The notes under the pieces are model-generated. The model made no database searches and was not told where the DNA came from. It worked only from the letters and a program-made list of their open reading frames with translations. This document shows positions 43,846 to 63,407 of a stretch of 64,000 bases of DNA, piece after piece. The first letter of the stretch is position 1, and each line of letters starts with the position of its first letter. A program made the translations under genes and the position numbers. This DNA comes from Oceanicoccus sp. KOV_DT_Chl (GTDB taxonomy: Bacteria > Pseudomonadota > Gammaproteobacteria > Pseudomonadales > Dasaniaceae), in the NCBI RefSeq assembly GCF_900120175.1, contig NZ_FQLF01000002.1:2294001-2358000 (forward strand), in the 5' to 3' direction.

Positions 43846-44654
43846 TTACATATCAATCGCACGAGGTAATTGGCGGTTGCCACCCCACAGTGTAGTGACC
43901 AGACGCTCACAAAGCGCTTTGCCAAATAACGTTTCACCGACCACATTGGCGGGGTCAACTTCGGCTACGGTGCGTCTAACCATTAAGTCGCGCTCAGAAA
44001 CAGCAGCCTGTTTTTCTAGCGGAACCGGTACCGCTTGATCCACCCAGTCCAGCCATAGATCCAGACGCTGATGTGAAATTTCACGTAGTCGCTGAATATT
44101 TTTTTCATTGTTGTCTGCGCTTAAGCATAAAGCGTTGGGGGTCAATGAAACGCGGTATACATATGGTGACTGACAAATTCTTTAAAATCGGGGTCAGCTT
44201 TCATGTCCAAAAACATTTTATTGGGGATGCCGTTGTAATATTTTTCTACGTAATCGACATCAGTGATGTAATCGATGCGGGGTAAAAAATCCATATAAGC
44301 GAATAGGTCGGGAGTGGTGCCCAGGGCAAAACCAAAGTTGGGCACGTCGTACTGTGGCCCTAAGGTAATGGTCAGGTGCATATTGGTGAAGCTGGCTTTT
44401 GGATTGCCGGTCCAGGCGTGAACCAGCCAGTCAATATCCTTGGAGGCGTAAGTGTTTAGCAGGCCGCCTGATTCTCCATCAAGACCTTTGTATTCACCGA
44501 TGCTAGCGCCGTCTTGTTGCAGGTCAAAGCGCGCTTTGACTTTATCGAATAGCTCATTGGTGATCGCCCACAGTTGCTCAAAGGTGGCGGTGTTGTCTAC
44601 GTCCTGGCTTTCTTTGAACATCTCTTCTATCGATTTAAGGACTTTGTCGGTCAT
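43846..44654 (-). CDS. red chlorophyll catabolite reductase (RCCR/ACD2)-like protein (one frameshift)
   Basis: About 269 residues after adding one C beside 44154-44155 (minus strand ACCGC to ACCCGC), which yields HHMYTRVSLTPNALCLSAD. By eye it follows plant ACD2: VPNFGFALG vs APNFVVELI, DYVEKYYNG vs DYLKEYYQD, RVSLTPNALCL vs RSAFSPTASML, and RDLMVRRTVAEVD near the C-terminus vs the plant ERRDKSFRRKSIEDD stretch. RCCR reduces red chlorophyll catabolite with ferredoxin and belongs to the bilin-reductase superfamily. The plant Glu154 position seems to be Ala here, while the C-terminal Asp seems kept. There is no transit or signal peptide. It lies between two calycin-like genes. Confidence 0.65.
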
Positions 44655-44797
44655 GTTCTTACTCCTCTTCCGGCAGCTGTTGCGCGGGTGTGATCGTCAT
44701 TGCTATCGTTATATTAACAAAAAGTTATATTGATATGTTTTTAAGCTATTTTAGCGTTTGTGCTTACTGTCTTGCAATCTTTTCCATGCTTAAAGTA

Positions 44798-44811
44798 GGG
44801 CAATATTGCCC
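44798..44811. promoter_or_regulatory. perfect palindrome upstream of RCCR-like gene
   Basis: GGGCAATATTGCCC is an exact 14-base palindrome in the 180-base gap before the RCCR-like gene (minus strand). A regulator-binding site is possible. A further CAATGTTG lies about 10 bases away. Confidence 0.4.
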
Positions 44812-44834
44812 ATTAGGACAATGTTGCTAACGGG

Positions 44835-45443
44835 CTAGGATTCTTCATCAACCAAATGTTGCCAAATAGGGGATACAAATATATCGCCATGTACTGGGCC
44901 GTTGGGGCCTCTTGGGTCGCTAGGGTGGCGCTGTTCACAGGTAGGCGATAAGCGGCTGCCTTTAGCGGTGAGTGTCCTTACGGCTTTACCGTCGCGGTAC
45001 AGCACAGTATGGCGGATGCGCTGCCCGGGCCCGGTGACAATAATAAAATCCGGCTCCAGATACACATCGGTTGATTTGTTAAGCTCGGAGGCGTTAAACG
45101 TTAGAATGCCTGGTCCGCCGGACATGCCAATATTATGGAAAGCACCAGGCCCCATTTCCTGAAACACCAATAACCCGTCTTCCATGGTGCCGGCAAAAGT
45201 TTTGCTCGTCAGCTCACGGCCACGAATATGGACGTTGGTCAGTTTCAGCCGATAGCCATCAAAATCGATATAGGCTAGATTATCAAACGGACTAGGGCCA
45301 GGTGTGCCAGCCCCTAAATCGCTATCCGTATTCAGTGGGGTGCCGTCCAGATTGTATAGTTCGATATGGTCATGCCAGATACCGCGCAACAACATCAAGT
45401 TATAGCCTACAGAGCCTATCGGGAAGGTGGGGAAGGGTTTCAT
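44835..45443 (-). CDS. calycin-like protein, DUF3598-like
   Basis: About 202 residues from ATG 45443 (MKPFPTFPIGSVGYN). An in-frame extension to TTG 45593 exists but has no ribosome site. LLRGIWHDHIELYNLDG is a lipocalin-type GxW opening with the same layout as GEWHGYPSLFEADG in the gene at 42837. Later strands are LVFQEMGPG, PDFIIVTGPGQRIRHT and VHGDIFVSP. It is probably a ligand-binding barrel. It lies upstream of the RCCR-like gene on the same strand and divergent from the NYC1/NOL-like SDR. Confidence 0.55.
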   Translation of the reverse strand: MKPFPTFPIGSVGYNLMLLRGIWHDHIELYNLDGTPLNTDSDLGAGTPGPSPFDNLAYIDFDGYRLKLTNVHIRGRELTSKTFAGTMEDGLLVFQEMGPGAFHNIGMSGGPGILTFNASELNKSTDVYLEPDFIIVTGPGQRIRHTVLYRDGKAVRTLTAKGSRLSPTCEQRHPSDPRGPNGPVHGDIFVSPIWQHLVDEES

Positions 45444-45551
45444 AATCGAGTCCAAGGTGTTGATGTTAAAACTATAGGCTAACGGCCGCTGTTTGGGTGC
45501 GCTTGTTAGTCTTTGTGTAACAATAAGGTTGACGGCAAAGCCTAATGATAT

Positions 45552-45568
45552 AACAATGATATATTGTT
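45552..45568. promoter_or_regulatory. operator-like inverted repeat in divergent promoter
   Basis: AACAAT-N5-ATTGTT is an exact inverted repeat between the minus-strand calycin/RCCR-like run and the plus-strand SDR. Its placement allows one regulator to control both. No regulator gene is adjacent. Confidence 0.45.
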
Positions 45569-45634
45569 CGTTGAATACTATAGCTAAACTCAACTAACTG
45601 CCAGCCTAAAATTCAATCCTTGTGGAGTATGATC

Positions 45635-46450
45635 ATGATCACCGTTGTTGTCACCGGTAGTACGCGCGGCATTGGCCGTGGTCTCGCAGAGAATTTTTTA
45701 ACACGTGGATGTAATGTCGTCGTCAGCGCGCGTAATCAGCAGCAAGTGGAGGAGGCTATCGCGCAACTTGGTGCTGAATTTGGTGCTGAAAAGGTAGCTG
45801 GAATTGCCTGTGATGTGGCTAGTTATGAGGATCTGCAGGGCCTGTGGGATTGTGCTGAAACTGCATTTGGTCGGGTTGATCATTGGGTCAATAATGCCGG
45901 GCGTACGCTGGATCGCAGCCCGTTTTGGGAGGCTGAAAATGCTGAAATTGAGAGCATTGTCGCCACCAATCTCACCGGTTTATTGTTTGCCAATAAAGTG
46001 GCTATGCGTGGCATGATCAAGCAAAGTGATGGTCCACAAGGGAAGGGCCAAATCTGGAATATGGAAGGCTTTGGTAGCACGGGTATGACGCAGGCTGGTT
46101 TGGTTATTTATGGTTCGACCAAGCGTGCGGTCAATTATCTCAATAAGGCGCTGGTGAAAGACGCAAAAGATACCGGGGTAAAGATATGTACTGTCAGTCC
46201 CGGTATGGTGCTGACGGATTTACTGATCGGCGAATATGATACTAATTCCGAGGACTGGCGGAAGGTGCGCAAAACCTTCAACATTCTGGCGGATAAAGTT
46301 GAAACGGTTACCCCTTGGCTGGTTGATGGGATTTTGGCAAATAACAAAGACGGCGGCAAAGTTGAGTGGTTAACGACGCCTAAAGTGATCGGTCGTTTTT
46401 TGAAAAACTTGGTGGTTAAGCGCGATTTATTTGCCGGAATGGGTATCTAA
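45635..46450 (+). CDS. short-chain dehydrogenase resembling chlorophyll b reductase (NYC1/NOL)
   Basis: 271-residue NAD(P)H enzyme. ATG 45635 has GGAG seven bases upstream. The cofactor motif is TGSTRGIGRGL, with NNAGRTLDRSP and catalytic YGSTK. It matches plant NOL/NYC1 beyond the general SDR signature: WNMEGFGSTG (plant FNMDGAGSGG), YGSTKRAVN, VSPGMVLTDLL (plant ASPGMVLTELL), then FNILADKVETVTPWLV and VEWLTTPKVI (plant FNIICELPETV and NYLTPPRI). NYC1/NOL reduce chlorophyll b to 7-hydroxymethyl-chlorophyll a in plants. It is divergent from the RCCR-like run. The substrate here is inferred only. Confidence 0.75.
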   Translation: MITVVVTGSTRGIGRGLAENFLTRGCNVVVSARNQQQVEEAIAQLGAEFGAEKVAGIACDVASYEDLQGLWDCAETAFGRVDHWVNNAGRTLDRSPFWEAENAEIESIVATNLTGLLFANKVAMRGMIKQSDGPQGKGQIWNMEGFGSTGMTQAGLVIYGSTKRAVNYLNKALVKDAKDTGVKICTVSPGMVLTDLLIGEYDTNSEDWRKVRKTFNILADKVETVTPWLVDGILANNKDGGKVEWLTTPKVIGRFLKNLVVKRDLFAGMGI

Positions 46451-46499: not shown

Positions 46500-47279
46500 A
46501 TGGAAAATTATCAAATTGCTCGTCGGGCACAAATCGGTGTATTGATTCCTTCAACGAATACCGGAGTCGAATACGATTTACAAAAATTCGGTTTGGACGG
46601 GGTGACTTGGCATCCATCGCGTTTTTGGATTGAGTTAAAAAACTGGGCCGATGAAAAAGCGGCTACCGGTGATAGTGAAAATGTGGTGTTCGAACGCTTT
46701 CTGGATTTAATGCGTGATGAAATGCCACCAGCAATAAAAAATGTATTAAGCTCAAAAATTTCTCACCTGATGCTGGGGATGTCCGCAGAAACTTTCTGGG
46801 GCGGCAAAGAAGGTAATATAGAATTTGAAAAAGCCGTGCGCGAGCAGCTGCCTGCAGGTTTTGGTTTAACCACTGGCGCTACTGCCAGCCACGATGCGCT
46901 GCAGGCTTTTGGCGCCAAAAAGATTTCGGTTATCACGCCGTACCCACCGGTAGGCGATGACAATGTGCGCCAGTATTTCACTGAAATTGGTTATGAAGTA
47001 AAAGCAGTGAAAGGTTTGAATCGTCCGTCAGCAACAGCGATTGCTGAAACGTCGATTAAGGAAGTGATGGATGCAATAAAAGAAGTGGACGGGGATGACG
47101 TTGATGCTATTTTGCAGTGCGGTACCAACCTCTCTACCGTTGATATTTTCCCGACTTTGGAACACTGGTTGGAGAAACCGTTAATCCCCATCAATATTGC
47201 CACGGTATGGCATGCATTGAGAGCCTGCGGTATTAACGATAAGATCACAGGCAAAGGGCGACTGTTAGAAGAGTTTTAA
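46500..47279 (+). CDS. Asp/Glu racemase-superfamily protein (arylmalonate decarboxylase / maleate isomerase-like)
   Basis: 259 residues from ATG 46500. The opening RRAQIGVLIPSTNTGVEYDL and the middle KKISVITPYPPVGDDNVRQY match maleate isomerase and arylmalonate decarboxylase. The second catalytic Cys is present in ILQCGTNLSTVDIFP. The first Cys position is Ser in LMLGMSAETFW, so it has one Cys like arylmalonate decarboxylase rather than the two of maleate isomerase. It lies 49 bases after the NYC1/NOL-like SDR and is probably in the same operon. The reaction is uncertain: decarboxylation of a malonate-like acid or isomerisation. Confidence 0.8.
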   Translation: MENYQIARRAQIGVLIPSTNTGVEYDLQKFGLDGVTWHPSRFWIELKNWADEKAATGDSENVVFERFLDLMRDEMPPAIKNVLSSKISHLMLGMSAETFWGGKEGNIEFEKAVREQLPAGFGLTTGATASHDALQAFGAKKISVITPYPPVGDDNVRQYFTEIGYEVKAVKGLNRPSATAIAETSIKEVMDAIKEVDGDDVDAILQCGTNLSTVDIFPTLEHWLEKPLIPINIATVWHALRACGINDKITGKGRLLEEF

Positions 47280-49499: not shown

Positions 49500-50846
49500 T
49501 TAATGCCCGGCCGATAGCTGGGCATTTTCATTTAAGGGGACAATTTTATCCTTCACCAAAATTGCCCATACCAGAACTACCAGCGCCATTGCGCCCATAA
49601 ATACAAACGGGCCTTGACCTAGCCAATTGTCAAATAACCAGCCACCCACTACTGCAGAAATTAAAATACCAACACCGCCACTTAAGTTGAAGAATCCCAT
49701 CACTGAGCCGCGTATTTTTACCGGTGTCTGTTGCGAAATTAACACCGCGCTAGTAATGATGCAGCCAACTTCCGCCATGCCGATAAAGGCGGCACAGACA
49801 AGCATGCCAGCACTAAAGGGGTCGGAAACGAAGTAGGTGCCGCAATAACCAATAACCGAGCAAACCAGCGTGATAATCAGTGCGGTGGTGCGATTAATGC
49901 GGTCGGTTAGGATGCCGAATACAGGGGCTGATAGCAGAGCAATAGATTGAGCAATACCCAAAATCATACCGGCTTTGGCAAGTGCGTCGGCGCTGGACAT
50001 GGCTTTTTCTTCAATCCCGTAATCTTTAAGCCAGAGCGTAAAAAAAGCGCCAACCAGGGCGACATTGCCGCGGGCGATGAATGAGGCGCCGTAAGCGAGT
50101 GCGACACCAGGGTCCTTACCGGCAGTCAGGCCTTGTTTCGCGAGTGACAACATGCTTTCAGATTTGCTGCCAGCAACCTGTACCACTTCAATTTTTTTCA
50201 ATCCAAACCACATGATTACTGCGGTTACTATGGCGATAATTGCGGCAGTATTATAGGTCGCATAACCCGCCTCAATGGGGTCCATACCCTGACCCTGAAA
50301 AAAAGCTGGTAGTTGAAGCAGGATAAAAACACTCAACATAGCGCCCAGTCCGTTCCCCATTCCCAGTAGTCCTGATGCTTTGCCGCGGCTATTGTCTCTT
50401 GCGTAGTCCGCCATCAGGGTGATGATGATGCAGCTATAAGCGCCGATACCGGCGTTAAAAATAATTCTCGCCACGATCAGTTCGTCATAGCTGGTGACGC
50501 GAGGGTATAGATACATGCTTAAGGCAACAATTAAATAGCTGCCTGCCATCAACGGCCGTCGTCCAATTTTATCTGACAGTGTGCCCCAGATGCCGGTGGT
50601 TAGGATGATGGTGATCTCACCATAAAAAGCCAGATTACCGGTAATCATGCCCTGTTCTGAGCTGGGTATTTTCAAAAATTCATCGAGAATATAAGGTTGC
50701 AGCTGTGGCGTGAAAGCCGCCAGCATAATGCCGGTAAAGCAGGCAAAGTAAAAAGTGACCATATTGCCAAAGCCGACGCCTTCATTGAGATCAATGAAAC
50801 CAAGGAAGGTGTTCGGTCGTGCAGTGGGGGAGTTTGTTGTGCTCAT
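49500..50846 (-). CDS. MFS transporter
   Basis: 448-residue permease from ATG 50846 (MSTTNSPTARPNTFLGF); the longer frame upstream has no ribosome site. Motif A is GTLSDKIGRRPLMAG after helix 2, followed by ARIIFNAGIGAYSCI. Twelve membrane segments. No close functional group is evident; it is generic sugar/drug/organic acid type. It is followed within about 430 bases by the divergent catabolic cluster, which it may serve (inference). Confidence 0.88.
   Translation of the reverse strand: MSTTNSPTARPNTFLGFIDLNEGVGFGNMVTFYFACFTGIMLAAFTPQLQPYILDEFLKIPSSEQGMITGNLAFYGEITIILTTGIWGTLSDKIGRRPLMAGSYLIVALSMYLYPRVTSYDELIVARIIFNAGIGAYSCIIITLMADYARDNSRGKASGLLGMGNGLGAMLSVFILLQLPAFFQGQGMDPIEAGYATYNTAAIIAIVTAVIMWFGLKKIEVVQVAGSKSESMLSLAKQGLTAGKDPGVALAYGASFIARGNVALVGAFFTLWLKDYGIEEKAMSSADALAKAGMILGIAQSIALLSAPVFGILTDRINRTTALIITLVCSVIGYCGTYFVSDPFSAGMLVCAAFIGMAEVGCIITSAVLISQQTPVKIRGSVMGFFNLSGGVGILISAVVGGWLFDNWLGQGPFVFMGAMALVVLVWAILVKDKIVPLNENAQLSAGH
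49502..49530 (+). terminator. terminator shared by convergent genes
   Basis: AATGCCC and GGGCATT form a seven-base-pair stem followed by TTCATTT on the plus strand. The stem is also the last coding stretch of the convergent MFS gene, where it may act in reverse. Confidence 0.55.
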
Positions 50847-51275
50847 TAGTGTTATTAACTCTCTACAGGGCGGGTTGAGTATCGTTGTTTTTCTATGCGC
50901 CCAGCACAATAGTTGCTGTTAGCACTATGACAAGATAACAGGATTAGCAGATTGTACGCAGTCATGGTTAAAAACGATCAGTATTGGCGATATTGTTCTG
51001 GTGCGCCAGTCTATGGCAGGTGCGAAAGAATAACGTTTAAGAATTGTTAAGTTATTGAAAATCCAATCAAACCAGTGGCTTTGCGGGTTGTGAAAAGTGC
51101 TGATTGGCGGCATTGTGACTATCGTTGGAATGAATAAAAGGTATAATGTTATTAGTTTATATCATTTGCGGATTTTGTCTCTGATGGCATGATCGGGATA
51201 AGTCTACAGAAGTGGTTCCGCAGTAACCCCCTTGGCTCTTGTTTAGAGCTGAGTTTTAAGTGAAGAGTTTGACTG
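50847..51275. promoter_or_regulatory. divergent promoter region before catabolic cluster
   Basis: About 430 bases without a gene. TATAAT at 51142-51147 in GGTATAATG is a good -10 box for the plus-strand cluster, but no well-spaced TTGACA-like -35 is visible, so an activator may be needed (inference). No other structure seen. Confidence 0.4.
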
Positions 51276-52985
51276 ATGAGTGAGAGTTCAACAATCCGTG
51301 TAGCGGCCGCCCAGTTTCATATTGGCCATGATCTTGATGAGAATTTACAGACCTGCTTACGAATGATTCGTAAGGCGGCTGAGTGTAAGCCTGACCTGAT
51401 TGTTTTGCCTGAGTTTTGTAATCACTTGTCCTGGTATGAAGATCAGCAACATTGTGATCGAGTATCCGTCAGCCTGGATGGTGATTGGTTAAAAGCGATT
51501 GCCGCTGCGGTGAAAGAAGTGGCTACCTATTTGGTCATCAATGTGACAGTGCTGCGTGAAGATGGCGCTTGTACTGGCACTTCCTTGCTGTATTCCCCTA
51601 AGGGAGAATTGCTGGCCGATAACGATAAGCAGATTTATATTGGCCATGAGAATGATTTTCTGCGTCCAGCTCAGGTTGAAGGCCCGATTATCGACACGCC
51701 TTTAGGTAAGTTGGGAATGTACGCTTGTATGGACGGGGTGATAAATGAAACCCCTCGCTGCCTGAGCCTGAATGGCGCGCAATTAATTTTAAATAGTGTG
51801 AATTCCTTTGCCCCTGATGAAGGTTCTCTGCATATGCCGGTGCGGGCAGCAGAGAATCGGGTGTTTATGATAGCCGCCAATAAAGTTGGCCCTTTGATCC
51901 CTGATTTTTTAATGGATCCTGTAAGTGAGGCGACCGGAATCCCCAAGCCGTTTTTATGTGGCGCGGGCGATAGCCAAATTGTGGCGCCTGATGGCACGGT
52001 GTTAGCTATTGCCGGTAATGAAGAAGAAGTTATTTTTGCCGATATTAATCCCGCTGATGCACTTAATAAAGTAAATGCCAGTGGCACCGATATTTTTGCC
52101 AGCCGCCGCCCGGATTTGTACGGGGTCATTACCACTGATCCGGCGAGTCAGCCACAGTCTGAATATCGTGGTGCCGAAAAAGCCTCCGCTGCGATGATTC
52201 AATTATCGCAAACAGGCCCTGCTGCTATAGAGGAGGCAATTGAATATGTTACTAAAGCCGTTGCAGATGGCGCTCAGGTAGTGGTATTGCCAGAATTGTT
52301 TTTTGTTGCCGATAGTGCCAATCCTGATTTAATTGCTGCAGCAAAAGACTCTCAGGCGTTAATAGAAAAGTTTACTGCTATTGCAGGGCAAGCCGTGGTG
52401 GTGTGCTCATTGGTGGTGGTAGAAGCTGCGGAATATTTTCATACCACCGTGGCGATTGATCAAACCGGGGTGATTGCTGCACAAAAGCAATTACATGCAT
52501 GCGCGCGTTTAGCCTGGTCGGCCTTAGGCAATGACGTCGTTACTGTTAATACAGATTTTGGTCGCTTGGGTTTAGTGACGGGTGGCGATACTATTTACCC
52601 GGAAATGTTCCGCTTGGTGGCTATGCAAGGCGCCGAAGTGGTCGCTGTGCCGTTTGCAGTACAGGAAAAATGGGAGCTGGAAACTGGCCTGATTGAGCGT
52701 GCTGCTGAAAACCGATTGAATGTAGTGGCGGTCACTCAGCCATCGCCATTAGGTTGTAGTTTTGCTAATAAGCTACACAAAGATTTTACCGTTATGACGC
52801 CGTGGCAAGAGCGGGCGTTCGATGGTAATTTGACCTACCCGATTATTACTAAGGCCGGTATGGCTGCGGGTATTACCTTGGCAGAATTAACGCCGATTAA
52901 TGCTCAGGATAAAGTTGTATCCCTTGGTACCGATTTAATTCGCAATCGTCCTTGGCGAGTAGCCGGTGCGATTAGCAGGCAGTAA
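51276..52985 (+). CDS. two-domain nitrilase-superfamily (CN hydrolase) protein
   Basis: 569 residues with two carbon-nitrogen hydrolase domains in tandem. Domain 1 (about 5-280) has the Glu in LIVLPEFCNHLSW, the Lys in NDKQIYIGHEND and the Cys in MYACMDGVINETPR, so a full triad. Domain 2 (about 300-565) has the Glu in VVVLPELFFVAD and a Lys in AAQKQLHACARL, but the Cys position is Gly in LVTGGDTIYPEMF, so it is probably inactive. The enzyme likely hydrolyses an amide or nitrile in the cytoplasm. It is the first gene of the plus-strand catabolic cluster. Confidence 0.88.
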   Translation: MSESSTIRVAAAQFHIGHDLDENLQTCLRMIRKAAECKPDLIVLPEFCNHLSWYEDQQHCDRVSVSLDGDWLKAIAAAVKEVATYLVINVTVLREDGACTGTSLLYSPKGELLADNDKQIYIGHENDFLRPAQVEGPIIDTPLGKLGMYACMDGVINETPRCLSLNGAQLILNSVNSFAPDEGSLHMPVRAAENRVFMIAANKVGPLIPDFLMDPVSEATGIPKPFLCGAGDSQIVAPDGTVLAIAGNEEEVIFADINPADALNKVNASGTDIFASRRPDLYGVITTDPASQPQSEYRGAEKASAAMIQLSQTGPAAIEEAIEYVTKAVADGAQVVVLPELFFVADSANPDLIAAAKDSQALIEKFTAIAGQAVVVCSLVVVEAAEYFHTTVAIDQTGVIAAQKQLHACARLAWSALGNDVVTVNTDFGRLGLVTGGDTIYPEMFRLVAMQGAEVVAVPFAVQEKWELETGLIERAAENRLNVVAVTQPSPLGCSFANKLHKDFTVMTPWQERAFDGNLTYPIITKAGMAAGITLAELTPINAQDKVVSLGTDLIRNRPWRVAGAISRQ

Positions 52986-53047: not shown

Positions 53048-54328
53048 ATGGTGAGTAAATTAACTGGTGAATATTACGTTGAGAATCTGAGTGCCGATGA
53101 ACGGAAAATTCAGGAGATCGTAGAAAGCATCCTGCCGTCGTTAAAAGAAAAATCAATCGAAGTGGATATCTCCGCAGAATTTTATCGCCCTCATGTAAAA
53201 ACACTTGCCGATGTTGGATTGATGGGGTTGATGGTACCTAAAGAGTACGGTGGTTTAGGTGGTGGATTACGCGATCTTTGTGCTTCGGTATTTGCCATCA
53301 GTACTGCCTGTCCTTCTACTGCGATGGCTTACTTTTTTCAGTGTTCTTCGACATCGCGTGGTGTGCTGTTATTAAAGGCGATTGAAGCGGGTTTGTTTGA
53401 AGATAAAGATGAAGAAGCGCGCGCCAAAGCTTGGGCTGAAAGATTATTGCGTATTATTGGCGAAGGCAAAAACTGGACGGGTAACTTTACTTCAGAGGGT
53501 GCCAAGTCAGAAAAGGCCAAGCTAACAATCGAAACTGTCGCTAAAAAAGTGGACGGCGGTTATGTATTGAACGGAGTAAAATCTTTCGCTTGTGCCTACG
53601 ATGTTGCCAATTACTATTTGGTTACCGCCTCGCTCGAAGGCACTGATGATGCTGGAGGTTTGTGTACTTTTATTGTGGATAGTAAAACCGAAGGTTTGGA
53701 TCGTCGGATTAAATGGGATGCAATGGGCTTGCGTGGTAGTGCGACTGACGGTTTGGTGATGACAGATGTTTTTGTGCCGCAGGACATGTGTCTGGATATT
53801 CAAGGGGCATTCGTGAAATCAATGTCAATGTCGCGCGGATCTTTTGTAGGTAATCAGGTTGCAGGTCCCGCAGTCTATTTAGGTGTGGCCCACTCCATCT
53901 ATGAAGAAACCAAAAAGAATTTACGTACTAAAACCTATAAGGATACCGGCGCCACTTATGCAACTAATCCGGTGTATCAAAATATTTTTGGTCAGATGAT
54001 GCAGGATTATCATACGGCAGTATTATTTATGCGTCGACAGCTGGATCTGGAAACTTCAGAGCCACCTATTTTGCCAAAGGATGAAGTTGTTAAGTTGTGG
54101 CGTTTAAGCAAGGGTATTATTGCTGAGGCGGCGTTTGGTGTGGCGCAGGGTGCTTTAAAAATTGCTGGTACCTCCGGTACTTTGGGTACAGCGCCACAGT
54201 CTCGTGCCATGCGTGATATCGGCATGGGGTTGGTGCAGGGCTTTTCGCCTGAAATGGGTAGAGCTGATGCGGCTAAAACTGAATTGTTGGAACAAGCTGA
54301 GGCTCAATTTGCTGCGGCAAAAAAATAG
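53048..54328 (+). CDS. acyl-CoA dehydrogenase family flavoprotein
   Basis: 426-residue FAD enzyme of the acyl-CoA dehydrogenase fold. Order: helical N-domain (DVGLMGLMVPKEYGGLGGG), beta domain (KVDGGYVLNGVKSFACAY, DAMGLRGSATDGL), then a C-terminal four-helix bundle. The ATG has AGGAG upstream. The usual catalytic Glu was not identified, so it could be a dehydrogenase of a CoA ester or a DszC/HpaH-like flavin monooxygenase. It lies 62 bases after the nitrilase-like gene. Confidence 0.85.
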   Translation: MVSKLTGEYYVENLSADERKIQEIVESILPSLKEKSIEVDISAEFYRPHVKTLADVGLMGLMVPKEYGGLGGGLRDLCASVFAISTACPSTAMAYFFQCSSTSRGVLLLKAIEAGLFEDKDEEARAKAWAERLLRIIGEGKNWTGNFTSEGAKSEKAKLTIETVAKKVDGGYVLNGVKSFACAYDVANYYLVTASLEGTDDAGGLCTFIVDSKTEGLDRRIKWDAMGLRGSATDGLVMTDVFVPQDMCLDIQGAFVKSMSMSRGSFVGNQVAGPAVYLGVAHSIYEETKKNLRTKTYKDTGATYATNPVYQNIFGQMMQDYHTAVLFMRRQLDLETSEPPILPKDEVVKLWRLSKGIIAEAAFGVAQGALKIAGTSGTLGTAPQSRAMRDIGMGLVQGFSPEMGRADAAKTELLEQAEAQFAAAKK

Positions 54329-54390: not shown

Positions 54391-55824
54391 ATGATTGAAC
54401 GTGGTTTGATAATTGGTGGTGTCGAGCAGGCAGCCGCCTCAGGTGAAACTTTTGATGTTTTGTCCCCGGCAACTGAGCAGGTTATTGGTAGGGTTGCTCG
54501 TGGTGCTAAAGCAGATGTCGATTTGGCGGTAGCTGCTGCACGTAACGGTTTTACCCAGTGGCACCGCCTGACGCCTAGCGCACGTGAAGCTGTTCTGTTG
54601 CGTGCAGCCGATATTATGGCAGAGCAGGGTGAGCAGCGTTATCTCGACTTATTAATCGATGAAAGTGGCTCGGTCATTAATAAGGCTCGTTATGAAATCG
54701 CTCGCACCGCGGATTTATTACGAGCCGCTGCTGGTGAAGTTCGTCGTTTGTATGGCGAGACCATGCCGAATGACAGCCCCGATAGAATTTCCATGGTTTT
54801 CCGTGAGCCTTTGGGGGTTGTCGCTGCCATAGTGCCTTATAACGCACCATTGCTATTGCTGACCAAAATGACGGCATTTCCGCTGGCAGCGGGCAATAGT
54901 ATTGTCATTAAACCCTCGGAAGAAACCCCGCTAATTGCCATTGAATATGCCAAGTTACTGGTAGAGGCTGGATTACCTGCTGATGCCGTTAGTGTAGTTA
55001 CAGGATTTGGTGCGGAGTGCGGTTCGCCATTAGTTGAGCATGATGATATCAACGCTATCGCCTTAACCGGTTCTACGGCTACCGGTAAAGCGATTGGAAA
55101 AATCGCGATGGAAAAAATGCGTCCGACCCAATTAGAGTTGGGTGGAAAATCTGCCTTAGTAGTACTGAATGATTTTGATGCTAAGTCCGCCGCTAAAATT
55201 GCCATCGAAGGGATGTTTACCCACGCCGGTCAAATTTGTATGGCTAACTCAAGGATCGTTGTTGAGGCTGGTATTTTTGATGAATTTATTGCTGAACTTA
55301 AAGCAGGTTGCGAACAATTGGTTGTAGGTGATGTGCGCGATACAAAATCGGCGTACGGCCCGTTGATTAATCGCAATGCCTTAAACAAAGTGCTCGCTCA
55401 TATTGAAGATGCAAAAAGTCGTGGTACCGCTTTGCTGACCGGTGGTGAAGTGCATCAAGGTTTGACGCTGCAACCAACCGTGTTGCTGGAGCCTTCTCGT
55501 GAAGCGACAGCCTGGCGGGATGAAAGCTTTGGCCCACTTACCAGCGTGGTTAAGGCGCAGGACCTGGATGATGCTATCGCATTAGCCAACGACAGTGTGT
55601 TTGCGTTATCGGCGGCAGTGTTAACCCATAATATTCAACGCGGTTTTAAAGCGGCTCGTGAAATTCGTTCCGGTGCGGTCCATATTGGCATGCACTCTTT
55701 TCAGAGTAATGCGATGGCGCCAATAGGTGGTATGGGTGATTCCGGTATCGGTCGCAGCGGTGGTAAATACAGCACAGAGGAATTTACTGAGCTGAAGTGG
55801 ATCAGTGTTGAGTTAGGTGGTTAA
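54391..55824 (+). CDS. aldehyde dehydrogenase
   Basis: 477-residue NAD(P)-dependent enzyme, full length. VVAAIVPYNAPLLLL, ALTGSTATGKAIGK, LELGGKSALVV with the general-base Glu, and THAGQICMANSRI with the catalytic Cys are in order, and DESFGPLTSVV follows. Vanillin/salicylaldehyde-type dehydrogenases look similar, but the substrate cannot be named. It lies in the middle of the catabolic cluster; its end is about 10 bases before the hydrolase start. Confidence 0.93.
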   Translation: MIERGLIIGGVEQAAASGETFDVLSPATEQVIGRVARGAKADVDLAVAAARNGFTQWHRLTPSAREAVLLRAADIMAEQGEQRYLDLLIDESGSVINKARYEIARTADLLRAAAGEVRRLYGETMPNDSPDRISMVFREPLGVVAAIVPYNAPLLLLTKMTAFPLAAGNSIVIKPSEETPLIAIEYAKLLVEAGLPADAVSVVTGFGAECGSPLVEHDDINAIALTGSTATGKAIGKIAMEKMRPTQLELGGKSALVVLNDFDAKSAAKIAIEGMFTHAGQICMANSRIVVEAGIFDEFIAELKAGCEQLVVGDVRDTKSAYGPLINRNALNKVLAHIEDAKSRGTALLTGGEVHQGLTLQPTVLLEPSREATAWRDESFGPLTSVVKAQDLDDAIALANDSVFALSAAVLTHNIQRGFKAAREIRSGAVHIGMHSFQSNAMAPIGGMGDSGIGRSGGKYSTEEFTELKWISVELGG

Positions 55825-55834
55825 TTTCAATCCC

Positions 55835-56620
55835 ATGAGCATTCGTCGCGATTATATTGATACAGCTATTGGTCAAATACACTATCGAAGCAGTGGTGAT
55901 AGCCGTTTAGGCGTACCGCTAATTTTATTGCATCAGGTTCCTAGTTCTTCCGCTATGTATGATGCATTGCTGACGGAATTGGCGGAAGACTATTGGATGA
56001 TTGCGCCGGACATGCCGGGTTTTGGTGGCAGTGATCCTTTGCCGGGCAGTATAACCATTGAAGCTATTGCTAAAGTATTTCACGAAGCGTTGTCTAACTT
56101 GGGGGTTAGCCAATGTTACCTGTTTGGCCATCACACCGGTGCCTCAGTTGCGGTGCAACTGGAATATGATTTTCCTGGCGTATGTAAAAAAATGGCGCTG
56201 TCTGGTCCGACCTTGCTTAATGATAGCTTGCGTGAATTACTGCCGACAATTTCCTGTGCTTTTCCTGTGCAGGAAGATGGTAGCCATTTAATACAAATGT
56301 GGCAGCGTATTCGTGGTAAGGATAACGATGCGCCACTGAGTATAAGTCAGCGTGAAACGTTGCTGGGTATTGAGTTGGGGGAGCGCTACCCCGATGCCTA
56401 CATGGCTGTTATTGCGCAAGATTACGCTACCCAGTTGGCCGCTATACAATGCCCAACACTTATTTTTGCTGGTACTCAAGACCCTTTGTACGGTCAGTTG
56501 GATGATGCGCTGGCTTTGTTGTCGCAAGGGACGAGGAAAGAAATTAAAGATGGTCGTACTTACGGCTGTGAGCGGGATGCCGACAAAATGGCGGTCCTGC
56601 TAAAGGATTTTTTTCAATAA
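55835..56620 (+). CDS. alpha/beta hydrolase-fold protein with unusual nucleophile elbow
   Basis: About 261 residues from ATG 55835; a GTG at 55817 overlapping the previous gene is the alternative. LILLHQVPSSSAMYD (oxyanion region) and MPGFGGSDPL are typical of C-C hydrolases and haloalkane-dehalogenase-like folds. The nucleophile elbow reads FGHHTGAS: His occupies the position normally held by Ser, and no clear catalytic His was found near the C-terminus (DGRTYGCERDADK). It may use other chemistry, for example decarboxylation or lyase activity, or be inactive. The next gene is an isochorismatase-type amidase. Confidence 0.8.
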   Translation: MSIRRDYIDTAIGQIHYRSSGDSRLGVPLILLHQVPSSSAMYDALLTELAEDYWMIAPDMPGFGGSDPLPGSITIEAIAKVFHEALSNLGVSQCYLFGHHTGASVAVQLEYDFPGVCKKMALSGPTLLNDSLRELLPTISCAFPVQEDGSHLIQMWQRIRGKDNDAPLSISQRETLLGIELGERYPDAYMAVIAQDYATQLAAIQCPTLIFAGTQDPLYGQLDDALALLSQGTRKEIKDGRTYGCERDADKMAVLLKDFFQ

Positions 56621-56642: not shown

Positions 56643-57236
56643 ATGGATCTGGAACGCAAAGCCCTTGGCTTGGGTGATAAGCCTGCACTGGTGTTAGTTG
56701 ATATGATCAATGGCTTTACCAGTTCAAAATGTCCGTTGGGAACCGATTGCCCTGAAGTGGTGGCGGCTAATAAAACGTTGTTGGAAGCATTTAGAGCCAA
56801 AGGGCTACCGGTGTTTTTTACTACCGTTGTTTATCGTAATGATGATGACGCCACTGTTTTTCGTGGCCGTATTAGTGCGCTGAATGTTTTAACGCCTGAC
56901 TCTGACTGGGTGTTGGTTGACCCTGAGTTGGAGCCTATTGATGGTGAAGTATTAATCGAGAAATGTTGGGCGAGTTCGTTTTTTAAAACGGATTTGGATC
57001 AACAGCTTCGAGCCATTGGTGCTGACTCTATAGTGGTCACAGGGCTAACGACTAGTGGTTGTGTGCGAGCCACAGTAGTTGATGGCTTGCAGAATAATTA
57101 CCCGGTAGTGGTGCCTGTTGAGGCGGTCGGAGATCGCAATCAGGAAGCGCATGAAGCAAATTTACACGACATGCACGCGAAATATGCTGAAGTGCAAACT
57201 GTGCAAGATGTAATTAATCATTTAAATAGCATGTAA
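56643..57236 (+). CDS. isochorismatase-family amidohydrolase (N-carbamoylsarcosine/maleamate amidase-like)
   Basis: 197-residue cysteine hydrolase. The Asp-Lys-Cys triad is in LVDMINGF, LIEKCWASSFF and GLTTSGCVRATVVDG, and the cis-peptide TGLTTSGC matches maleamate amidase (NicF) and N-carbamoylsarcosine amidase. It releases ammonia from a small amide such as maleamate or N-carbamoyl acid (family knowledge). The ribosome site AGAGA lies six bases before ATG 56643. It is next to an alpha/beta hydrolase, the same pairing as NicD-NicF in nicotinate breakdown. Confidence 0.9.
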   Translation: MDLERKALGLGDKPALVLVDMINGFTSSKCPLGTDCPEVVAANKTLLEAFRAKGLPVFFTTVVYRNDDDATVFRGRISALNVLTPDSDWVLVDPELEPIDGEVLIEKCWASSFFKTDLDQQLRAIGADSIVVTGLTTSGCVRATVVDGLQNNYPVVVPVEAVGDRNQEAHEANLHDMHAKYAEVQTVQDVINHLNSM

Positions 57237-57259: not shown

Positions 57260-58717
57260 ATGGATAAAGTCACCATCGTTCTAGTTACGCTGGTTGTTTA
57301 TAAAATCTTTTTGATCGGTGTAGGGTTGTGGGCGCAGCGGCGTACTCACGATGAAGCAGATTTTTTTCTTGGCGGTCGTGGTCTAGGTCCCGTTGTCGCC
57401 GCTATTAGCTACTCGGCGAGTTCATCTTCTGCCTGGACTTTGTTGGGCGTCAGTGGGGCGGCCTTTGTGATGGGCTTGTCTGCTATATGGCTGGTGATTG
57501 GCGCTGTTTTGGGAATGTTATTCGCGTGGGTTTTTGTTGGTCAGCGATTAATGGTATTTAGTCGCGAGCATAATTTGCTGACCTTGACAGACTTTCTTGC
57601 ACTGGGTGCTGAGGGTTTTTGGCGCAAGGCTATTGTTTACTCCGCGTCCATTATCATTATTTTTGCTTTTTCTTTTTATGTTGCCGCTCAATTTCAAGGG
57701 GCTGGCAATACCTTTCACCAGACGTTTAATATTTCAATGACTAACAGCATTGTGCTTGGTGCGGTCATTATAATGATTTATACCTTTCTCGGTGGTTTTT
57801 GGGCCGTCAGTGTGACGGATACAGTGCAGGGGTTTTTAATGGCCATAGCGGCTATTTTGTTGCCTACTGCTGCACTGATTGCTGTGGGAGGTATTGATGG
57901 TTTTGTTACCGGCCTGCAGGCGGTGAGTACACCTGAGCAAATGAGTTTCACCGGCGCTTTTTCGGGGTGGACGGCACTGGGGTTTGTATTAGGAGCAACC
58001 GGTGTGGCGTTCGGTACCTTCGGTCAGCCGCATTTGTTGGTGCGTTTTATGGCTCTAAGAGATGAAAAATCACTGCGACAGGCGCGGTTAATTACGGTGT
58101 TATGGTTTTTTGTTGTGTTTGGTGGCATGTGTTTTGTTGGCTTGGTTGGTCATATACTGATTCCGGAAGTTGTAAACCCAGAGTATATTTTCTTTGAATT
58201 AACAGATTATTTATTTCCGCCGGTGATTGCCGCGGTACTAGTGGCTGCAGTGTTGTCCGCGATTATGTCGACCGCAGATAGCCAATTGTTGGTGGGGGCG
58301 TCGGCAGTATCTTATGACTTGGGTTTAAGTAAGCGGTTTCCCAGTAAGGCGCTATTGATCTCTCGTTTAGCGATTGCAATACTGGTGGTGTTGGCGGTGG
58401 TGGTTTCATTAACTTTGCCATCGACTATTTTTAAGCGTGCGTTATTGGCGTGGACAGCCTTGGGCGCTGCGTTTGGGCCGTTAGTATTGTTGCGGGTGTC
58501 GGGGGTGAATATCGTACCTAAAGGTGTATTTTTCGGTATGGTTACTGGCTTTACATTGGCAGTATTTTTTCACTTCAATCCCGGAAGTTTTGTCCAAAAT
58601 TATATTTCTGACAGTTTGCCTGCGACAATTTTTGAGCGAATTTTATCGTTTGTAGCGGGCTTGGTCGTGCTGCTGTTTTTTCGCCAGCGGCAATTACTAA
58701 ATGAGAAGGTCGTATGA
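57260..58717 (+). CDS. sodium:solute symporter (SSS family)
   Basis: 485-residue permease with 13 predicted helices. RRTHDEADFFLGGRGLGPVV near the N-terminus and LTDTVQGFLMA-type sequence (VSVTDTVQGFLMAIA) are typical of the PutP-like SSS group, as is STADSQLLVGASAVSYD. It takes up a solute with Na+; similarity to PutP and panthothenate/proline carriers does not fix the substrate. It lies 23 bases after the amidase and overlaps the oxidase start by four bases, so it is cotranscribed with the cluster. Confidence 0.92.
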   Translation: MDKVTIVLVTLVVYKIFLIGVGLWAQRRTHDEADFFLGGRGLGPVVAAISYSASSSSAWTLLGVSGAAFVMGLSAIWLVIGAVLGMLFAWVFVGQRLMVFSREHNLLTLTDFLALGAEGFWRKAIVYSASIIIIFAFSFYVAAQFQGAGNTFHQTFNISMTNSIVLGAVIIMIYTFLGGFWAVSVTDTVQGFLMAIAAILLPTAALIAVGGIDGFVTGLQAVSTPEQMSFTGAFSGWTALGFVLGATGVAFGTFGQPHLLVRFMALRDEKSLRQARLITVLWFFVVFGGMCFVGLVGHILIPEVVNPEYIFFELTDYLFPPVIAAVLVAAVLSAIMSTADSQLLVGASAVSYDLGLSKRFPSKALLISRLAIAILVVLAVVVSLTLPSTIFKRALLAWTALGAAFGPLVLLRVSGVNIVPKGVFFGMVTGFTLAVFFHFNPGSFVQNYISDSLPATIFERILSFVAGLVVLLFFRQRQLLNEKVV

Positions 58718-60273
58718 GTGTAGTGGTATCCCTGCAGCAGATTGTTGGTGAGCAGTATTGTTTGCTTGATGAAGAAAGCCGTGTGTTTTATTCCATGGAT
58801 ATATGGAGTCGTGGTGAAACTGCAATAGCTGTAGTGCAGCCGGAAAATGCGGAGCAATTGTCGCAGGTGGTGGCTGCAGCCACTACCGCAGGACATGCTG
58901 TCATAGCGCGTGGTGGCGGTATGTCTTATACCAAAGCCTATACACCTGATCACCCTGATGCGGTGATGATTGATTGTTCGCGGATGAATAAAATTATCGA
59001 GATCAATCGCGAAGATATGTATGTCACGGTAGAGGCTGGTTGTACATGGAAGGCATTGCACGAAGCCTTAAAGGGCAGCGGCGTAAGAACGCCATATTGG
59101 GGACCGCTATCGGGTATAAAAGCAACAGTGGGTGGAAGTGTTTCGCAAAATAGTATTTTCTGGGGTGGTGGTAGTTACGGCAGTGCTGCTGACTCGGTAG
59201 TCAGTATGGATGTGGTAGTGGCTGATGGTACCATTTTGTCTACAGGTTCGGCGGCACAAAAAAATGGGACGCCATTCTTTCGGCATTTTGGACCTGACTT
59301 AACGGGCCTGTTTACCTGTGATTGTGGTGCGTTGGGTATTAAGGCTGCAGTGACATTAAGGCTAACACCAGAGCTTGGCGCGCATCGCTATGTTGCTTTT
59401 GATTTTGCGGATCATCATGGCTTGCTTGCCACTATGAATGAAATTTCCCGCTCGGCGTTAGCGGCGGAGTGTTTTGGTTTTGATCCTTTGCTCACTGAAA
59501 TGCGCGCACAGCGCGATAGTTTGGTGAATGATGCTAAAGCGTTTGCTGGAGTACTGAAGAATAGCGGTTCGGTAATGGGCGCGTTAAAGGACGGCGCTAA
59601 GTTAGCATTAGCTGGTCGACGTTTTATGAAGGATTTGCGATGGCCGATGTATGTTGTCATTGAGGAGCGAGTTGCTGCCGCAGCTGAAGATGCTTTGGAA
59701 AAAGTAGTCGCCATTGGTAAAAAGCATGGTGGTAATGAGGTGGAAAACTCTATCCCTAAAATCATTCGCGCTAATCCATTCGGGCCGGTAAATAATATGA
59801 TTGGCCCCGGCGGCGAGCGTTGGGCGCCGGTTCATGCATTGATGCCCTTATCAAAAGCGAGTGCGGCTACGGAAGCGGTGTTGGCGATTTTTGCCAAGCA
59901 TGCAGCTCTCATTGAACAATATCAAATTAAAACCGGTTTTCTTTATAATAATGTATCGACTAATTGTATTGCAGTGGAGCCGTTGTTTTTTTGGCCGGAT
60001 GCAGTGGATGAAATACAAAAGGCCAGTGTAGAGCCAGCTTTCTATCAAAAAGTGGTTAAGCATAATGAGGATCTAGTCGCGCGTGCAGCAGTGGCGAAGA
60101 TTAGGCAAGAAGTAGCGGATCTGTTTAGTGAGATGGGCGGTGTGCATTTACAAGTAGGCCGGTCTTACCATTATAAAACCGGCTTAAAGAAGAATGCTTT
60201 TGACTTAGTGGCGAGTATTAAAAAAGTTGTAGACCCGAATGGAAAAATTAATCCAGGGGTATTAGGTTTATAG
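58714..60273 (+). CDS. FAD-linked oxidase of the vanillyl-alcohol oxidase family
   Basis: 519-residue flavoprotein with an N-terminal PCMH FAD-binding domain: VIARGGGMSYTKAY, AGCTWKALHEALKG, GATVGG-type KATVGGSVSQNSIFWGGG and GALGIKAAVTLRL. The C-terminal cap is VAO-like, ending VDPNGKINPGVLGL. The family oxidises phenolic or 2-hydroxy acid substrates (VAO, 4-cresol dehydrogenase, glycolate oxidase). Its ATG overlaps the symporter stop (ATGA). No separate cytochrome subunit is adjacent. Confidence 0.9.
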   Translation: MSVVVSLQQIVGEQYCLLDEESRVFYSMDIWSRGETAIAVVQPENAEQLSQVVAAATTAGHAVIARGGGMSYTKAYTPDHPDAVMIDCSRMNKIIEINREDMYVTVEAGCTWKALHEALKGSGVRTPYWGPLSGIKATVGGSVSQNSIFWGGGSYGSAADSVVSMDVVVADGTILSTGSAAQKNGTPFFRHFGPDLTGLFTCDCGALGIKAAVTLRLTPELGAHRYVAFDFADHHGLLATMNEISRSALAAECFGFDPLLTEMRAQRDSLVNDAKAFAGVLKNSGSVMGALKDGAKLALAGRRFMKDLRWPMYVVIEERVAAAAEDALEKVVAIGKKHGGNEVENSIPKIIRANPFGPVNNMIGPGGERWAPVHALMPLSKASAATEAVLAIFAKHAALIEQYQIKTGFLYNNVSTNCIAVEPLFFWPDAVDEIQKASVEPAFYQKVVKHNEDLVARAAVAKIRQEVADLFSEMGGVHLQVGRSYHYKTGLKKNAFDLVASIKKVVDPNGKINPGVLGL

Positions 60274-61656: not shown

Positions 61657-62151
61657 GTGAACACTTCGTCAATGTTAGCTATTTTAAATCATATCGAGCG
61701 AGTGCTATGCAATAGTGCCCTAGCCTTGTTAGCGTTGGTGCTATTTGCCGATGTGTTACTCCGGACTTTATTTGGAAACGGCTTAAGCTGGGCGCATCAA
61801 GTGGCGGTATATGCCAATATCGTGGTTTCCTTGTTGGGATTAGGTTTAGCTTCTGCCAATGGTAGCCATTTGCGCCCGCGATTTGCCGACCATTGGCTAC
61901 CACGGGCCTGGGAGCCGCAGATACAGCGCTTGGCTGCGTTGCTTAGTGCTATGTTGCTTGGGTTTTTTGCTTTTTTAGGTGTGCAGTTGGTGTTGGAGAG
62001 CTACGCGCTGGCTGAGAAGTCTAGTGTGTTGTTAATACCGGTATGGCCGGTGCAGTTGTTATTACCGCTGGCTTTTGTTTTGTCGAGCATCCGCTACTTG
62101 TTGTTTTCATTTTATCCCGCATTGCAGCCCGTAAATGAGTCGGTGGAGTAG
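61657..62151 (+). CDS. TRAP transporter small permease (DctQ)
   Basis: 164-residue inner-membrane protein with four helices. LNHIERVLCNSALALLALVLF and ADVLLRTLFGNGLSWAHQVAVYANI match the DctQ pattern. GTG 61657 is taken as start; ATG 61672 is possible. It pairs with the following DctM protein to take up an organic anion with Na+. The periplasmic binding protein (DctP) normally found with them is not in this window. Confidence 0.87.
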   Translation: MNTSSMLAILNHIERVLCNSALALLALVLFADVLLRTLFGNGLSWAHQVAVYANIVVSLLGLGLASANGSHLRPRFADHWLPRAWEPQIQRLAALLSAMLLGFFAFLGVQLVLESYALAEKSSVLLIPVWPVQLLLPLAFVLSSIRYLLFSFYPALQPVNESVE

Positions 62152-63407
62152 TGGTGACGATTCTCGGCTTGATAGTGCTGGTGTTGTTGTTGCTATTGTT
62201 GCGACAGCCAGTGATGATAATTTTGATGGCAGTACTGGCCTACTGTTATTACTTCTTTAGTGATAGTGAATTACGTTTTATTCTGCTGGATGCGTGGGGG
62301 GCATTAAACAAAGAAGTATTGCTCTCTATTCCACTGTATATCTTGGCCGGTAATTTAATGAGTGCCGGTTCTATGGCCAGCCGTATCACCGATGTGTTGC
62401 GAGAAGTGACCATTATAATACCAGGTGGCCTAGCGCTATCGGCAGTGCTGGCTTGCGCAATTTTTGCTGCTATGTCCGGGTCCTCCACGGTGACATTGTT
62501 AGCAGTCGGTAGCGTCCTGTATCCGGCTTTAATTGAGGCGGGTTATCCCAAGCGTTTGTCCATAGGCGTACTTTGTGCCGCTGGCACGCTGGGTATTATT
62601 ATTCCGCCTAGTATCCCGCTTATTTTATATGGTGTGATGACCAAGGCTTCAATTGTTGATTTATTTCTCGCGGGCTTCGGGCCGGCACTACTACTAACGT
62701 TCATTATTTCAGCTTATGTTTTATTTAAATGCCGACATATGCCAACGGGGCGTTACTCAGTCGCGTTGTGGCATAGTTTAAAACGTAGCATATTGGCGTT
62801 GTTGGCGCCTGCTTTAGTATTGGGTGGCATATACAGTGGTTTTTTTACTGCTACTGAGGCGGCGGTAGTAGCCGTTTTTTATACATTGTTTATACAATTA
62901 TTTGTTTATAAAGAAATGCAAATAAACGATGTATTAAAAATTACGGAAAAGACCTGCACGTTAATTGGCGGTTTATTTCCAGTGTTGATGCTAGCCGTTT
63001 GTCTGAATATGTTTCTTACCTACCAGCAGCTTCCCGACCAGTTAGTGGCCACAATGCTGCAATATATTGATAGTAAGTTAAGTTTTTTACTGGCTAGTAA
63101 TATCCTGCTGTTATTAACTGGCAGTATTATTGATATTGGTTCGGCTATTTTGATTTTAGCGCCATTACTAAAGCCTGTTGCCAATAGCCTGGGGATAGAT
63201 ACCATTCACTTTGGTATTATGATGATTGTGAATTTGGAAATCGGGTATTTAACGCCGCCTATGGGTCTGAATTTAATTATTGCCATGGGCGCTTTTAGGG
63301 AAAGTTTCTGGGAGATATGCAAGGCGGCGGTGCCTTTTATGGGCTTGATGTTAATTGGCTTAATAATAGTTGCGGCTGTACCCGAGATTAGTTTGTTTTT
63401 ACTTTAA
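62151..63407 (+). CDS. TRAP transporter large permease (DctM)
   Basis: 418-residue permease with 11-12 helices. SIPLYILAGNLMSAGSMASRI, FAAMSGSSTVTLLAVGS and PPSIPLILYGVMTKASI are DctM motifs. GTG 62151 overlaps the DctQ stop; GTG 62154 with GGAG five bases upstream is equally possible. Residues NLEIGYLTPPMGLNLI in the C-terminal half close the substrate path. Substrate unknown. Confidence 0.95.
   Translation: MVTILGLIVLVLLLLLLRQPVMIILMAVLAYCYYFFSDSELRFILLDAWGALNKEVLLSIPLYILAGNLMSAGSMASRITDVLREVTIIIPGGLALSAVLACAIFAAMSGSSTVTLLAVGSVLYPALIEAGYPKRLSIGVLCAAGTLGIIIPPSIPLILYGVMTKASIVDLFLAGFGPALLLTFIISAYVLFKCRHMPTGRYSVALWHSLKRSILALLAPALVLGGIYSGFFTATEAAVVAVFYTLFIQLFVYKEMQINDVLKITEKTCTLIGGLFPVLMLAVCLNMFLTYQQLPDQLVATMLQYIDSKLSFLLASNILLLLTGSIIDIGSAILILAPLLKPVANSLGIDTIHFGIMMIVNLEIGYLTPPMGLNLIIAMGAFRESFWEICKAAVPFMGLMLIGLIIVAAVPEISLFLL

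Follow-up and report, generated by a model that had tools for sequence, protein, structure and literature searches.

Why should a gammaproteobacterium carry, side by side, relatives of two enzymes that plants use to break down chlorophyll? The question is raised by a stretch of 64,000 nucleotides from Oceanicoccus sp. KOV_DT_Chl (assembly GCF_900120175.1, contig NZ_FQLF01000002.1, positions 2,294,001 to 2,358,000; hereafter the window), which lies on contig C2 of a 4.8 Mb genome assembled in 7 contigs. Chlorophyll breakdown through the plant PAO/phyllobilin pathway employs NYC1/NOL, chlorophyllase or pheophytinase, PAO and RCCR. A preliminary description of the window had placed in it an RCCR/ACD2-like gene on one strand flanked by calycin-like genes, an NYC1/NOL-like short-chain dehydrogenase (SDR) on the other strand and a palindrome between them, and had proposed that together they form a bacterial system acting on chlorophyll or another tetrapyrrole. 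Its gene coordinates are right and its observation is confirmed, while its interpretation is partly supported by the present analysis. The answer put forward here, with a probability of roughly 0.6, is that the locus belongs, as one of its branches, to an inducible catabolic regulon by which non-phototrophic gammaproteobacteria would dismantle chlorophyll-derived tetrapyrroles. Gene families (K1 to K30), loci (L with a number) and genomes (G with a number, G000 being the source genome) carry the labels of this analysis.

The core of the locus comprises three genes on the minus strand and one divergent from them. K8 (45443-44835) encodes an intact calycin-fold protein of about 200 amino acids and is followed by the RCC-reductase-like K1 (44654-43846), which carries one frame break near 44142-44145 and is thus read as two overlapping open reading frames (44654-44142 and 44145-43846). 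Next to it, K4 (43805-42840) encodes a beta-rich, internally duplicated protein of about 322 amino acids and unassigned family, in three frame pieces (43805-43521, 43486-43061 and 43064-42840). On the plus strand, K3 (45629-46450; start at the ATG at 45629 or 45635; adh_short 133 bits) encodes the NOL/NYC1-like SDR.

The assignment of K1 to the RCCR type is sound at the level of sequence. Each piece of the window copy falls below the cut-off of the RCCR family in Pfam (PF06405; 20.8 bits for the N-terminal part and 13.4 bits for the C-terminal part, cut-off 24.9), and the C-terminal part is likewise below that of the bilin reductase family (PF05996; 19.5 bits, cut-off 31). An intact relative in L014 (L014:9992-10789) scores 50.6 bits against PF06405, its only match of the two families, and a profile built from 23 intact relatives (the K1 proteins of L016, L017 and L054 and the broken window copy being left out) matched Arabidopsis RCCR (3agb) over positions 31-257 of 269 with an E-value of 5.8e-23 and 84.9 bits, against 26.7, 25.5 and 23.2 bits for the best ferredoxin-dependent bilin reductases (FDBRs). 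The family call therefore holds despite the low scores of the window pieces, and an FDBR as the identity of the window K1 was rejected, the profile being far nearer to RCCR. Glu154 and Asp291 of the Arabidopsis enzyme are what we take to be substrate-site residues; the offset of the residue numbering was checked at the single position that differs between two PDB chains (F218V, presumably the known mutation). At the Asp291 position, Asp is present in all 23 intact K1 proteins of the alignment, from which the window copy was left out.

For K3, both Pfam and NCBIfam return generic SDR models, none of them at cut-off among the best 25 of 233 NCBIfam matches, and the solved relatives at an E-value of 1e-20 are gluconate 5-dehydrogenase and FabG only; to our knowledge, neither library holds an NYC1 model. 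The likeness to NOL was assessed with a NOL sequence written out without recourse to a database entry, which served as the query in all the SDR comparisons. With this query K3 shows 35% identity over 272 columns and ranks second of 51 SDR matches in the source genome (E-value 1.3e-36, the fourth match being at 1.6e-18), the top match being the SDR that adjoins an RCCR copy at C2:767857. The comparison was extended to 16 genomes, consisting of 8 of the 15 RCCR-positive genomes at hand and 8 RCCR-negative ones. The best E-values obtained with this query range from 3e-37 to 4e-47 in all 8 positive genomes and from 1.5e-22 to 4.2e-13 in all 8 negative ones, and all 15 matches at or below 1.3e-25 fall in cluster loci of the positive genomes (0 in the negatives). 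Within the fetched stretches, a NOL-like SDR lies at most 5 kb away in 18 of the 28 RCCR-family loci, a count that includes one FDBR-like locus (L069) and leaves out the SDR of L068, which is cut by the end of its stretch. Among the outcomes that the preliminary description had named as telling against its proposal, an SDR placed among generic reductases is what the curated libraries give, while K1 lies inside the RCCR/FDBR superfamily as an RCCR-type protein and the co-occurrence of the two genes recurs between loci and between genomes.

The distribution of the RCCR family was surveyed in 390 genomes of 142 genera, sampled evenly from the order, and PF06405 is present in 11 of them, belonging to 7 genera; in a sample of the phylum it was found in 1 of 398 genomes, the source genome, and it is present in 5 of 5 genomes reached through related loci, which were selected for it. 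A profile of K4 built from 11 intact relatives detects the same 11 of the 390 genomes, 8 of which were known beforehand through adjacency, K4 having first been found there beside RCCR (window copy included). Seven of these 11 genomes contributed rows to the profile (G484, which has the same RCCR coordinates as the genome of L014, and G492, G517, G538, G610, G704 and G743), the broken window copy being the eighth. The independent part of the correspondence is thus the presence of K4 in G005, G600 and G636, where it does not adjoin RCCR, and its lack in the 379 other genomes. The photosynthetic reaction centre (PF00124) was found in none of the 15 RCCR-positive genomes, with a Synechococcus control detected, which means that the pigment would have to come from outside the cell; photosynthesis of the bacteria themselves as its source is unsupported.

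Genes for RCCR-like proteins, NOL-like SDRs, Rieske oxygenases, calycins, alpha/beta hydrolases, aldehyde dehydrogenases, flavoproteins, carbon-nitrogen hydrolases, isochorismatases and transporters are repeatedly found near one another. Two arrangements are recurrent: one (A) with K8, K1, K12, K4, K3, K5, K2, K7, K11, K6 and others, not all of them in every genome, and another (B) with K9, K3, K1 and either K2 or a MATE transporter. Both arrangements occur within 20 kb in L014, which belongs to the collection strain Litorivivens lipolytica CECT 8654, a good experimental host. K5 is a Rieske oxygenase in which the motifs C-x-H..C-x2-H and N-G-x-D-x2-H-x4-H are invariant in 10 of 10 proteins; its profile reaches 698-740 bits in 6 RCCR-positive genomes out of 8 (4 of the 6 contributed rows to the profile, K5 having first been found beside RCCR), compared with some 300 bits in G000 and G005 and no more than 123 bits in any of the 8 negative genomes. 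K12, K19 and K23 are alpha/beta hydrolases, although K12 from L014 and from L100 gave no Pfam match. Three K19 proteins pass the cut-off of 26 bits of the Chlorophyllase family PF07224, with 36.6 bits in L060, 32.6 bits in L061 and 34.0 bits in L090, the last being the copy of the source genome at C2:782-783 kb. Other recurring families include K25, which resembles the allantoinase PuuE (8e-22) and whose superfamily presumably includes the cyclic imide hydrolases, substituted maleimides being products of tetrapyrrole oxidation; K21, with matches to methylisocitrate lyase (3.6e-53) and 2,3-dimethylmalate lyase (4e-46); K18, a TonB receptor of siderophore/haemin-type resemblance; and the regulators K16 (Crp-type) and K30 (GntR-type). 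In G600 and G636, the place that RCCR occupies between K8 and K4 in other genomes is taken by a fusion of rubredoxin and rubredoxin reductase (L097:10356-11789 and L098:8124-9587), a plausible electron source and possibly a dedicated one.

Of the two genes flanking K1 that had been described as calycin-like, K8 is predicted to form a lipocalin/calycin-type barrel, and proteins of similar structure include Ycf58 and the phycobiliprotein lyase CpeS. K4 is internally duplicated in sequence and appears as all-beta only in a predicted model of pLDDT 42, too poor for a structure search, and a comparison of the K8 and K4 profiles showed no relation between them (probability 1%).

The palindrome noted between K8 and K3 is present as AACAATGATATATTGTT at 45552-45568. 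It overlaps a 16-base operator-like site at 45543-45558 (no strand; TAATGATATAACAATG, a single mismatch from TWWTGWTATAWCAWWA), and the exact site TAATGATATAACAATA occurs in the equivalent K3/K8 gap of L013, L091, L097 and L098, the last three of which, like L090, had been retrieved on the strength of SDR, K4 or Rieske matches. The operator pattern was derived from the cluster loci themselves and is circular to that extent, the non-circular part being the placement of the other sites in G600 and G636. In 962 kb of sequence from stretches chosen for the clusters, the pattern matched 66 times at up to 3 mismatches, with both strands searched so that symmetric sites count twice; a single mononucleotide shuffle gave 8 matches. 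When whole genomes were searched with at most 1 mismatch allowed, G600 had 7 sites, every one inside 2410781-2466134, a 55-kb region around its cluster loci (4 matches with the reversed pattern), and G636 had 6 sites, every one inside the 51-kb cluster region 445870-496662 (2 with the reversed pattern), the site at 445870 lying 7 kb beyond the fetched stretch. Of the four sites in L106 of G517, two immediately precede genes of the K29 and K18 types and the other two lie upstream of open reading frames without an assignment; sites away from RCCR in L103, L104 and L105 (G000 and G005) have neighbours without a strong match to the cluster families. Judged by position, a shared operator is well supported in the two genomes G600 and G636 and less so in a third, and it is only its place in the K8/K3 gap that points to an operator in the window.

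Outward of the core, the window continues with further families that recur in the relatives. Directly downstream of K3, K10 (46500-47279, plus strand) encodes a protein of the Asp/Glu racemase superfamily resembling EutA and arylmalonate decarboxylase (PF17645 58 bits); it scores 77 bits against TIGR02990, far short of the cut-off of 318, and is 78% identical to proteins in the L013 and L014 neighbourhoods. K2 (49500-50909, minus strand) is an MFS transporter (PF07690 151.8 bits) whose family occurs among the fetched loci in 13 of the 15 genomes. The remainder, all on the plus strand, are the carbon-nitrogen hydrolase K7 of 569 amino acids (51276-52985; PF00795 163.8 bits; 10 of 15 genomes by the same count), the acyl-CoA-dehydrogenase-like flavoprotein K11 (53048-54328; PF02770, PF02771 and PF08028; 8 of 15), the aldehyde dehydrogenase K6 (54391-55824; PF00171 499.6 bits; 10 of 15), the alpha/beta hydrolase K29 (55817-56620; PF00561 58.2 bits; also in L057, L061, L091, L098, L102 and L106) and the isochorismatase-family hydrolase K17 (56643-57236; PF00857 135 bits; 6 of 15). 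Farther downstream (57260-60273 and 61657-63407) lie a PutP-like SSF symporter, an FAD_binding_4 oxidase and the TRAP transporter genes DctQ and DctM, which do not recur among the compared loci.

Several related genes were observed elsewhere. RCCR paralogues outside the two main arrangements occur in L022, L018, L023 and L065, with K11 adjoining the paralogue in L018, and the presence of three RCCR-type genes in each of G000 and G005 hints at different substrates. An FDBR-family gene lies at L020:9869-10564 on the minus strand (C2:2260868-2261563 of the source genome; PF05996 46 bits), with a related gene in L025 (31.7 bits) and others in L069 and L067. It adjoins genes for a cytochrome c and a thiamine pyrophosphate-dependent enzyme, with a HupE/UreJ protein near, in a neighbourhood common to G000 and G005 (L069), and none of the partner genes that the available part of PMC10151467 gives for pre-PcyA was found among the six neighbours scanned. 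In L087 (C2:852000-871900), three genes of the source genome, including one for a TonB receptor, are frame-split relative to G005 near a K5-like Rieske gene, a second local spot of breaks.

The proposed regulon would work as a plant-like phyllobilin route joined to an oxidation of the fragments. The pigment or its fragments would be taken up by TonB receptors and MFS permeases, and phytol or methyl esters removed by the esterases K19, K12 and K23. The NOL-like SDR may reduce a formyl group, either that at C7 of chlorophyll b or one arising from the ring opening, and the macrocycle would be opened by the Rieske oxygenase K5, as by PAO in plants. The linear product would then be reduced by the RCCR-like enzyme with electrons from ferredoxin or rubredoxin, and the bilin bound or isomerised by the calycins K8 and K4. 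The fragments, putatively substituted maleimides or maleamates, would pass through the PuuE/imidase-like hydrolase K25, through K17 and K7, the oxidations by K6 and K11, and K21 to central metabolites.

Several points weigh against this reading. The substrate, the reactions and the order of the steps are inferred from the co-occurrence, the gene families and the gene order that were observed. The NOL query was not a database sequence, and in 10 of the 28 RCCR-family loci no NOL-like SDR lies within 5 kb. The position of plant Glu154 is occupied by Ala or Val in all 23 intact K1 proteins; the substrate site of K1 thus appears altered relative to that of plant RCCR, and its substrate may differ. 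The C-terminal domain of K5 is of the VanA type (VanA_C 72 bits, and KshA_C), with no PaO model at an E-value of 0.01, and K5 is classed here as a Rieske oxygenase without assignment as PAO. K19 also passes the cut-off of 20 bits of the PAF-AH model in all three proteins (36.5 bits in L060, 30.2 in L061 and 40.3 in L090), which fits about as well as Chlorophyllase or better in 2 of the 3 (36.5 vs 36.6 and 40.3 vs 34.0 bits), and the solved structures nearest to K19 are those of PETase-type hydrolases. The motif GHSRGG, which we take to be the chlorophyllase nucleophile motif, is absent from both K19 and K12, the corresponding motif being GHSFGA in 3 of 3 K19 and GHSAGG in 3 of 3 K12 proteins; K19 is therefore designated a Chlorophyllase-Pfam esterase and not a chlorophyllase. 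The Mg-dechelatase Staygreen (SGR) was detected in none of the 15 genomes, in a search in which no positive control matched and which does not establish absence, and SDR, Rieske, MFS, aldehyde dehydrogenase and hydrolase genes are found also in pathways for other compounds. The correspondence of K4 with RCCR is circular for 8 of the 11 shared genomes. As for the operator, sites and reversed-pattern matches number 58 and 34 in the 8 RCCR-positive genomes and 31 and 49 in the 8 negative ones; the source genome has 17 sites against 16 reversed matches, and cluster loci account for 3 of these sites (637295, 778728 and 2339543), G743 has no site, and the single site of G538 lies outside the cluster. 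Finally, the window copies of RCCR and K4 are both frame-broken, by one and two breaks respectively, and the otherwise similar cluster of G005 has no RCCR between K8 and K4.

The last two points lead to the alternative that survives best, a serious possibility although not the favoured one, namely that the set is decaying in the window, with RCCR and K4 reduced to pseudogenes and function retained only by the genes for transport and oxidation; it is compatible with a chlorophyll-directed regulon in the other genomes. Split frames affect only 4 of the 56 genes in the source-genome stretches at hand that have an orthologue in G005 (at least 60% identity), K4 being among the four and 52 being unsplit, which indicates that the breaks are local to certain spots. 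Yet the pieces of the window K4 are each still 92-95% identical to the intact G005 homologue (tblastn), so that the breaks would be either recent or errors of reading, and the source genome has RCCR genes above the Pfam cut-off and without internal stops at C2:637466 and C2:767857 and an unbroken K4 at C2:1186997. The breaks are as compatible with pseudogenes as with read errors, and the window RCCR copy may be non-functional.

That the regulon degrades some other tetrapyrrole, such as haem-derived biliverdin or the phycobilins of cyanobacteria and red algae, with K1 as a bilin reductase and the SDR acting on a bilin side group, appears unlikely. RCCR and FDBR belong to one superfamily and K1 retains the weak FDBR similarity described above, Ycf58 and CpeS are among the structural neighbours of K8, and the replacement of Glu154 would suit such a substrate; however, RCCR is by far the closer relative of K1, the NOL-like SDRs and Chlorophyllase-Pfam esterases are a better fit to chlorophyll, and no haem oxygenase was found among the proteins scanned with Pfam, a genome-wide search for it not having been made. 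It is improbable, too, that the regulon serves an unrelated algal aromatic, heterocyclic or terpenoid compound, with a reductase recruited from the RCCR family and an SDR that is NOL-like by shared ancestry only. The closest solved relatives of K5 are NdmA and SxtDIOX/SxtT, no NCBIfam equivalog cut-off was reached among the matches listed, and Rieske, acyl-CoA-dehydrogenase-like, aldehyde dehydrogenase, C-N hydrolase, isochorismatase and EutA/arylmalonate-decarboxylase-like enzymes are common in the catabolism of N-heterocycles and aromatics; but two independent coincidences with chlorophyll enzymes, co-occurring in all 8 RCCR-positive and none of the 8 negative genomes, would then be required, with the Chlorophyllase-Pfam matches in addition. 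An accidental adjacency of RCCR and SDR is rejected by its recurrence (18 of 28 loci; 8 of 8 against 0 of 8 genomes) and by the shared neighbourhood families.

The proposed regulon resembles the plant PAO/phyllobilin pathway in uniting an RCCR-family reductase, a NOL-like SDR, a Rieske oxygenase and Chlorophyllase-Pfam esterases in one neighbourhood set. It differs from it in being bacterial and organised in gene clusters, in a Rieske enzyme without the PaO domain and in the Ala or Val at the Glu154 position of RCCR, and it adds calycins, transporters and enzymes of fragment-degrading type. With the nicotinate and maleamate-type ring-fragment pathways it shares isochorismatase, EutA/arylmalonate-decarboxylase-like and dimethylmalate-lyase-like enzymes, whereas here the set is embedded in an RCCR neighbourhood and no match listed reaches an equivalog cut-off. 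The FDBR and pre-PcyA clusters of heterotrophic bacteria, so far as the available part of PMC10151467 describes them, share the superfamily and a non-phototrophic bacterial host; the context of pre-1 and pre-3 is given there as V4R, globin and haem oxygenase. In contrast, the K1 profile lies 58 bits closer to RCCR, and no V4R, globin or haem-oxygenase match was found among the proteins scanned. Bacterial RCCR-family sequences are known from Nostoc and Anabaena (PMC2716323), with outgroup sequences in Ca. Schekmanbacteria (PMC10151467), in each case according to the available part of the source; the Nostoc and Anabaena homologues differ in their photosynthetic hosts, and that part of PMC2716323 mentions no cluster with NYC1, Rieske or esterase genes. 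Among the open-licence papers listed, as judged by titles and the beginnings of abstracts, which concern mostly plant work, no account pairing RCCR with NYC1 in heterotrophic bacteria and no description of bacterial genes for chlorophyll destruction was found.

The amounts of chlorophyll made and destroyed every year are vast, and with such a regulon the fate of algal chlorophyll would become testable gene by gene. A defined cluster, an operator-like site, a named strain (Litorivivens lipolytica CECT 8654) and intact enzymes make the question a testable one. It may tentatively be suggested that these bacteria possess the first bacterial pathway, complete and defined by its genes, that leads from chlorophyll to central metabolites, with an inducible regulon whose products de-esterify, reduce, open and mineralise the pigment, and that such clusters are perhaps the evolutionary source or sister of plant RCCR and NOL; the locus also bears on the origin of plant RCCR and NYC1/NOL.

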